A stretch of 64,000 nucleotides of DNA from Bacteroides sp. (GTDB taxonomy: Bacteria; Bacteroidota; Bacteroidia; Bacteroidales; Bacteroidaceae): NCBI GenBank assembly GCA_015060765.1, contig SUXW01000011.1, positions 1 to 64,000 of the forward strand. The letters run 5' to 3'. Each line of letters opens with the position of its first letter. Position 1 is the first letter of the stretch. A program made the translations under genes and the position numbers. The notes beneath the pieces are model-generated. The model saw only the letters and a list, made by a program, of their open reading frames with translations, did no database searches and was not told the origin of the DNA. Below, in pieces: positions 36,208 through 50,916 of the stretch.

Positions 36208-36335
36208 GCACTAAAATAGGATGTTGTTATAATTCGGGACTAAAAGTTTTTGAAAATTTACCTACATCCCTACATGATTCTGCTTATCTGCTTGATTACC
36301 AGGTTGTAAACCATGTAGGGAATCCTGTAGGGAGC

Positions 36336-36360
36336 ATGTAGGGAGTTGAATTCCCTACAT
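36336..36360. repeat. Hairpin inside the repeat element
   Basis: ATGTAGGGA (36336-36344) and TCCCTACAT (36352-36360) form a perfect 9-bp stem with a 7-base loop. On the plus strand TTTTAT follows, a weak terminator; on the minus strand, the direction of transcription here, no T-run follows. Confidence 0.65.
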
Positions 36361-36462
36361 TTTATAAGAAACGGTAAACTAAACTTGTTGTCATCTGATA
36401 AGAAAAGCGTTAACTGATATCGATAGATTCATTCACCATTCTTTGGACCTTCGTTCATAATG

Positions 36463-36504
36463 CTTTGAACGGTGGTTCAAAGTACTTCGTACGGTGGTTT
36501 AAAG
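36463..36504. repeat. Two tandem palindromic 20-mers
   Basis: CTTTGAAC-ggtg-GTTCAAAG (36463-36482) is a perfect 8-bp palindrome. Two bases later CTTCGTAC-ggtg-GTTTAAAG (36485-36504) is a diverged copy with the same centre. They occupy the middle of the inverted-arm element. Confidence 0.7.
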
Positions 36505-36551
36505 ATTTTGATTGAGTTTATCTGCTTGATTTTCAGTATTATATAAATCAT

Positions 36552-36573
36552 GTAGGCAAATTATGTTGCCTAC
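36552..36573. repeat. Second hairpin inside the repeat element
   Basis: GTAGGCAA (36552-36559) pairs perfectly with TTGCCTAC (36566-36573), loop of six bases. It mirrors the left-arm hairpin in position but has a different stem. Confidence 0.6.
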
Positions 36574-36689
36574 AGGTTCCTTACATGCTTCCCTACATGG
36601 TTAATGAATTGATAATTAGAAGGATAAGCTTAATCATGTAGGGATGTAGGTAAAATTGCGAAAAAACTATTTGTAGCTATAACCGAATT

Positions 36690-50842: not shown

Positions 50843-50916
<74 letters not shown>

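Follow-up and report, generated by a model that had tools for sequence, protein, structure and literature searches.

The window analysed here, a stretch of 64,000 nucleotides from the genome of a Bacteroides sp. (the host genome below, G000; assembly 84% complete), carries a capsule operon in which two genes leave a 482-bp gap between them. One is an upxY-type gene (P0001; 36690..37385, minus strand) whose product gave NusG and KOW matches; the NusG match begins at residue 60, so the true upxY start is probably further in. The other codes for a flippase-type membrane protein (P0002; 34672..36207, minus strand), with a MatE match of 20.1 bits, below the Pfam cut-off of 24.9. An earlier note on this DNA had placed a repeat element between a NusG-type antiterminator and a flippase gene, and our domain searches agree with that location, the MatE match being sub-threshold. 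The element occupies most of the gap and contains no gene. A tRNA gene was also seen in the window at 50843-50916, on the minus strand.

The element has no assigned strand and spans 36239..36674, limits that follow the outermost inverted similarity and are accurate to within about 10 bp. The perfect 23-bp inverted repeat of the earlier note is present: TTTACCTACATCCCTACATGATT lies at 36257..36279 on the plus strand, where it corresponds to the two outer iterons, and at 36632..36654 on the minus strand. Its 19-bp core had two matches in the window at up to three mismatches, against 0.01 expected. The arms can be aligned further inward, as that note had also stated (36247-36342 with 36569-36664; 96 nt, 78% complementary), and an additional outer inverted pair was found at 36239-36251 and 36662-36674. 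The element itself is thus real, but its edges, at about 36239-36674, are slightly wider than the 36257..36654 first proposed. The proposed clustering of the CATGTAGGG-type repeat was likewise borne out, as 9 of the 17 matches in the 64-kb window (at most one mismatch) fell inside the element; the total of 17 is unremarkable (11.9 expected; 9 of 100 shuffles were as high), and it is the clustering that is remarkable.

Two end units account for the arms. Unit 1 (36256..36363, plus strand) and unit 2, inverted (36547..36655, minus strand), scored 111 and 114 bits with R1, a covariance model built from 11 units. In unit 1, three inner iterons, CATGTAGGG / CCTGTAGGG / CATGTAGGG, are found at 36312..36343 (plus strand) and a terminal hairpin at 36335..36361 (plus strand), the third inner iteron being common to both; the inner iterons and terminal hairpin of unit 2 lie at 36549..36599 (minus strand). 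The centre (36440..36505, no assigned strand) consists of overlapping inverted repeats of the TTTGAACGGTGGTTCAAAG type; by eye it seems to correspond to a repeat array that adjoins the left end in related elements. An outer AAAAGTTTTTTGCAAA-like stretch was also found beside other units. By eye, an AAATT-like direct repeat is possible at the window element, in AT-rich sequence, and is not general among the copies; no clear target-site duplication was seen at the copies read.

The ends of the window element matched eight other places in the host genome (stretches of about 90-117 bp at 76-84% identity, in most cases on both strands), and its centre had an additional 28-nt match at contig C40. 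Altogether the host genome presented nine places with 11 strong end units of about 105 bp, the window included, and three weaker matches. Only one of the eight other places is an inverted pair (C1); the remaining seven carry one strong unit only. Six host units, the left end at C1 among them, have about 250 bp in common, 88-90% identical to the query copy and containing the end unit plus short tandem repeats, and two others share 325 bp at 94% identity. One unit adjoins a tandem repeat of about 20 bp (GTGAACGGAGCGACGA type; L092 4534-4880), with extra copies relative to its relatives, and a tRNA-like sequence was read by eye beside L092. The scanned neighbours of the host copies included a predicted AAA-ATPase with a PD-(D/E)XK domain, GH43, class II aldolase, GH88, GH2, a POT transporter, an ABC-2 protein and GMP synthase.

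Units detected by R1 (E <= 0.01) were present in 10 of 61 genomes of the genus. The exact unit pattern was found in only one of the 40 genomes searched, the host itself, and in no viral contig, and a search of plasmids found no DNA similar to the window element. Another dispersed repeat (GAGCGAAGCGAAGGATCTCGG type) was seen by eye near several sites in G009, G057 and G060 (L080 ~2010-2085, L085, L134). In G008, contigs stop 12-51 bp behind units (L083 end, L088 end), as expected if assemblies break at these repeats.

The position behind upxY within the operon had suggested an RNA structure acted on by UpxY, a site of inversion or cassette swapping, or a mark of the cassette border. Folded as one DNA strand, the element is strongly structured (z = -10.2; none of 100 shuffles equally stable), and it has one terminator-like site on the transcribed strand where 0.4 were expected; it matched no known RNA family in Rfam at the gathering score. 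However, no end unit was found behind five upxY relatives examined (a sixth, L172, was unparsed), and no NusG-type gene was found among ten scanned proteins neighbouring the other host copies, which leaves the UpxY proposal unsupported. The proposals of a cassette-border mark and of a site for swapping gene sets are likewise unsupported; the other copies adjoin unrelated genes, such as those for glycoside hydrolases, aldolase, POT transporter and GMP synthase. A role as UpxY-responsive RNA or as an inversion or cassette-swapping site is accordingly very improbable. The window element is not a capsule feature, and any effect on the capsule operon would be secondary. The remaining proposal of the earlier note, a non-autonomous mobile repeat, is supported by full-size relatives that enclose a primase-helicase gene. 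That note had also held that scatter between unrelated genes would reduce the element to an ordinary interspersed repeat; the copies do lie between unrelated genes, but the label does not fit, because of those same gene-bearing relatives.

Inverted pairs of R1 units in the genus often start 0.26-0.6 kb apart, the window pair included, which is too short to leave room for a primase-helicase gene. In three cases the starts are 2-3 kb apart (about 2.5 kb), and all three long pairs (G000:C1, G061:C184 and G063:C96) enclose one intact frame of 694-696 aa. The enclosed proteins of G063 and G061 combine a BT4734-like N-terminal domain, a VapE-like domain and DUF3874, and the host protein at C1 is 75% and 72% identical to them, respectively. 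A gene for a HU-HIG protein starts 27 bp outside the right end in G063, and a HU-HIG-like frame was seen by eye outside the right end at C1 too. The host has a second full element at C23 (L160 4136-7445), whose inverted 110-bp ends, 93% identical, enclose divergent HU-HIG-like and primase-helicase genes. Its ends belong to a second host type with the word GTGTAGG, found at eight places: two at C23, four elsewhere and two at C30 (L192 1417-2664, G000), a 1.24-kb element with inverted ends of this type around a HU-HIG gene alone. The cargo therefore varies between elements (primase-helicase, HU-HIG, both or neither), and the mobile system may include HU-HIG as a partner. Elsewhere in the host, units of both end families lie about 350 bp apart (L094 3553-4122; G000:C41). 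In G070, two units with the word CTGACAC lie in the same orientation 2.6 kb apart (L153 8799-8905 and 11391-11497), with a 584-aa ORF, lipoprotein-like by eye, between them.

Gene-bearing and gene-less forms share their ends, and the window element is very probably a gene-less relative of the primase-helicase element. The distribution of the gene in the genus is consistent with such a relation: a primase-helicase match of at least 385 aa, a criterion of our own under which G019 and G010 were counted though in pieces, was found in 8 of 10 genomes with units versus 7 of 51 without (p = 8e-5, relatedness uncontrolled). The two genomes that carry units without a full gene, G057 and G058, are assemblies 88% and 80% complete. 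A wider gene search (E <= 1e-120) retrieved 3 of 393 genomes of the order, the host included, and the flanks of three genes from other genera (G181 and two of G386) had no inverted match above shuffles.

The PF08800 (BT4734-like) domain scored 120.4 bits in P0003 and 129.5 bits in P0004, with a cut-off of 22.4; the host protein is 75% and 72% identical to these two. In an alignment of 16 proteins, the others being 43-77% identical to the host protein, Walker A, Walker B, paired arginines, E88 and D182 were invariant in all 16. The motif naming is our own. E88 and D182 may correspond to the acidic metal-binding motifs I and III; motif I reads E-x-N/D/E-like rather than D-x-D/E in the 16 proteins. 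The ratio dN/dS was 0.06-0.16 in the five of nine gene pairs for which dS was finite, two of the five with dS >1, and such ratios show, at the level of coding sequence, a gene under purifying selection. The sole match in a PDB sequence search at E <= 1 was 7pds, 'Similar to D. nodosus vapE' (E 6.7e-5). In the accessible part of one paper (PMC5862659), archaeo-eukaryotic primases include the BT4734-like family, and a role as helicases of mobile elements is predicted for VirE-type domains. The protein had matches in 415 phage records, 7 of which covered at least 80% of the query, and in 75 plasmid records, 6 of which did so. In Bacteroides plasmids, the annotation of BT4734/BF3469-family genes assigns them no role. 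In a B. finegoldii plasmid record, whose gene table is incomplete, the gene lies between AMP-binding and GH3 genes and has full matching ends.

From its T-rich outer border inward, a typical end unit shows a short word two or three times, a spacer of about 33 nt, the same word two or three times in inverted orientation, and finally the word as a hairpin. This layout stays similar, whereas the word differs among elements: CTACAT, CTTGCAC, CTGACAC, TGACAAT and GTTGCAG. Words read by eye in the 3' flanks of the genes were CTACAT, CTACAC, CTTGCAC, CTCATACTCAT, CTGACAC, CTCTCAT and TGGTGGCAGCA. Related elements partly share words, which are therefore not exclusive. The best reading of the end unit is an origin-like iteron site. 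In an alignment of 53 distinct units, fitted to the model and including one off-register window row, 89.8% of the cells pair, and 21 of 26 stem pairs changed on both sides, in 113 cells compared with 38 in shuffles. Rather than folding, the swapping of words in double-stranded iterons may have produced this covariation; the alignment does not separate the two origins.

The words were also counted mechanically, as any 7-mer repeated at least four times in the 250 bp around and behind the stop codon. Nine of 16 in-genus genes had such a word versus none of 55 control ORFs; three copies were found behind five of the 16 genes (p 0.046-0.112, uncorrected) and behind five of the 55 controls, and two copies behind two of the genes. 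The set of 16 omits the contig-cut or split genes of G008:C19, G009, G010 and G019. At least three copies of the 3' word were present in the 5' flank of only five of the 16. An inverted-arm test on 700-bp flanks was clear in 3 of 16 (L103, L104 and L128), with L100, L101 and L126 scoring just above shuffles. With 1100-bp flanks L127, L113 and L114 were clear as well, giving 6 of 16 (scores of 66-177; shuffle maxima of 28-31), and the other 10 of 16 lacked a clear inverted match between their own two flanks. When all flanks were compared with each other, L103, L104 and L128 matched their own partner best, whereas the rows of L100, L101, L126, L102 and L127 scored higher off the diagonal, which we read as similarity of the neighbouring HU-HIG genes; the matrix is thus not a clean specificity test. 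Thirteen phage or plasmid records span at least 80% of the protein, and 10 of them made up the outside sample. In two of the ten, both ends are complete and match each other, with new words (TGACAAT and GTTGCAG); three word copies lay behind the gene in two of the ten (p 0.04 and 0.13) and two copies in six, and L174 and L178 look near-identical behind the gene, so that the outside records are not all independent. Four copies of a word behind the gene were absent in 7 of the 16 in-genus genes and in 8 of the 10 outside records.

These contents and words bear on a further possibility, an ordinary MITE moved by a classical transposase that escaped detection, with the primase-helicase as a passenger. 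The copies are indeed short, intergenic and multicopy with inverted ends, their cargo is variable, and the host assembly is incomplete (84%). Yet the sole plausible genes inside the five long pairs (C1, C23, C30, G061 and G063) are primase-helicase and/or HU-HIG, and no transposase or recombinase ORF was seen there; the word is the same at both ends where readable but differs between elements; and a clear target duplication is missing from the copies read. We consider a hidden transposase unlikely. The window element is probably non-autonomous, a MITE-like derivative of a mobile element that has, at its ends, origin-like sites for the primase-helicase which it encodes.

Parent and derivative can be compared directly in some genomes. 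In G009, the primase-helicase gene, here contig-cut, is followed by sequence that shares 94% identity over 117 bp with the right end of a short element (L079), and the leader of the G059 primase-helicase gene is 70% identical over 327 bp to a short copy of G008. By eye, short copies have one end with two outer iterons, bordering a repeat array, and another end with three. The prediction that a third G008 gene would carry the word of the G008 short copies proved wrong, its word being CTTGCAAG. The L079 element lies between genes that we take to code for a histidine kinase and glucose-6-phosphate isomerase, and its insertion site, filled in G009, is empty in four relatives. In G057 the two flanks align at 91% (2,552 bp) and 95% (414 bp), with a gap of 54 bp versus 626 bp in G009; by eye, the gene pair is kept without the element in G058, G060 and G064. 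G059, G061 and G063 have other neighbours at this site and are uninformative for occupancy.

Such a site also bears on the idea of a dispersed operator or RNA element that regulates primase-helicase genes and is copied by host recombination rather than being mobile. Units flank the gene, one stands upstream of it, and the covariation is structure-like; against this, solitary units are found at unrelated genes, there are sites both with and without the element, and gene-less copies combine left-type with right-type ends. This idea appears quite improbable to us.

The mobile derivative that we prefer suggests the following mechanism. The autonomous form would consist of two inverted end units of about 105 bp flanking a gene whose product joins a BT4734-like primase, a VapE helicase and DUF3874, sometimes with a HU-HIG gene inside. 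The primase-helicase would bind its own word at both ends, open the DNA there and replicate the segment, and gene-less copies, the window's included, would be served in trans; the window copy would have landed in the gap of the capsule operon. Movement by the protein is what we infer, and the chances that the primase-helicase drives copying of the element are about even. Neither a transposase nor a recombinase was seen between the ends, and a host or helper enzyme may join the copy to its new site. More tentatively, and with rather less confidence, the elements could represent a class of transposable elements driven by a primase-helicase and not by a transposase, in which replication would start from inverted ends with cognate iterons, copies would insert elsewhere, gene-less forms would be served in trans and new lineages would arise by a change of word at both ends. 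The matching ends, gene-less copies and free site make some BT4734/BF3469-family genes testable mobile elements, and the changing words offer a natural series for how a primase-helicase initiator would recognise its origin. Elements with changing words would also account for intergenic repeats where some draft contigs end. No published description of a BT4734/VapE element with such ends was found among the titles and abstract openings listed by searches of an open-access library.

Several known systems resemble the element in part. As in MITEs, the window element is short, lacks a transposase gene and has terminal inverted repeats and several copies, of which seven others in the host have one strong unit only; it departs from them in that its ends are shared with a primase-helicase element, with no transposase-like ORF seen in the five long pairs. 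BrickBuilt of Porphyromonas gingivalis, according to the accessible part of its description (PMC4596501), is likewise short, intergenic and multicopy with inverted ends, and holds tandem repeats as do several relatives of the window element. Its ends match IS5-family transposons (PMC4596501), whereas the ends here are iteron sites with a changing word and, unlike those of BrickBuilt, enclose primase-helicase and HU-HIG genes. BrickBuilt was rejected as the same element, its ends as described there being different.

REPINs, which are moved by a RAYT (Y1 transposase), similarly present paired hairpin units at many intergenic sites, and the bulge in the hairpins and the GTAG within the word of the window element recall them. 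They need a Y1 transposase, however, and no Y1_Tnp (PF01797) was found in the host genome (84% complete), in a search whose control matched 5 of 14 genomes; moreover, GTAG lies inside the stem and is absent from several other words. An origin as a REPIN-like repeat is extremely improbable.

The proposed mobile element with origin-like ends comes nearer to replicating satellites. The BT4734-like primase family has the PF08800 domain in common with the element's protein, and the accessible part of PMC5862659 names the family once, with no ends or derivatives described there. In the accessible parts of their descriptions (PMC7145576, PMC10061031), SaPIs and phage P4 have a helicase and a separate or fused primase, as is predicted here. 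The pairing of a primase with a VapE-type helicase that marks such satellites is thus present in the element as far as its sequence can tell. Those satellites carry integrase and packaging genes, whereas no integrase, packaging or capsid gene was seen between the ends of the elements read, where there is no room for them. Again unlike SaPIs and P4, the elements described here have iteron sites at both ends in inverted orientation, and gene-less copies scattered in the chromosome. P4 alpha and SaPI Rep read cognate iterons. The putative primase-helicase has its nearest working counterparts in the initiators of SaPI and P4, and an initiator that would bind its own iterons is compatible with the words that match at both ends of some elements.
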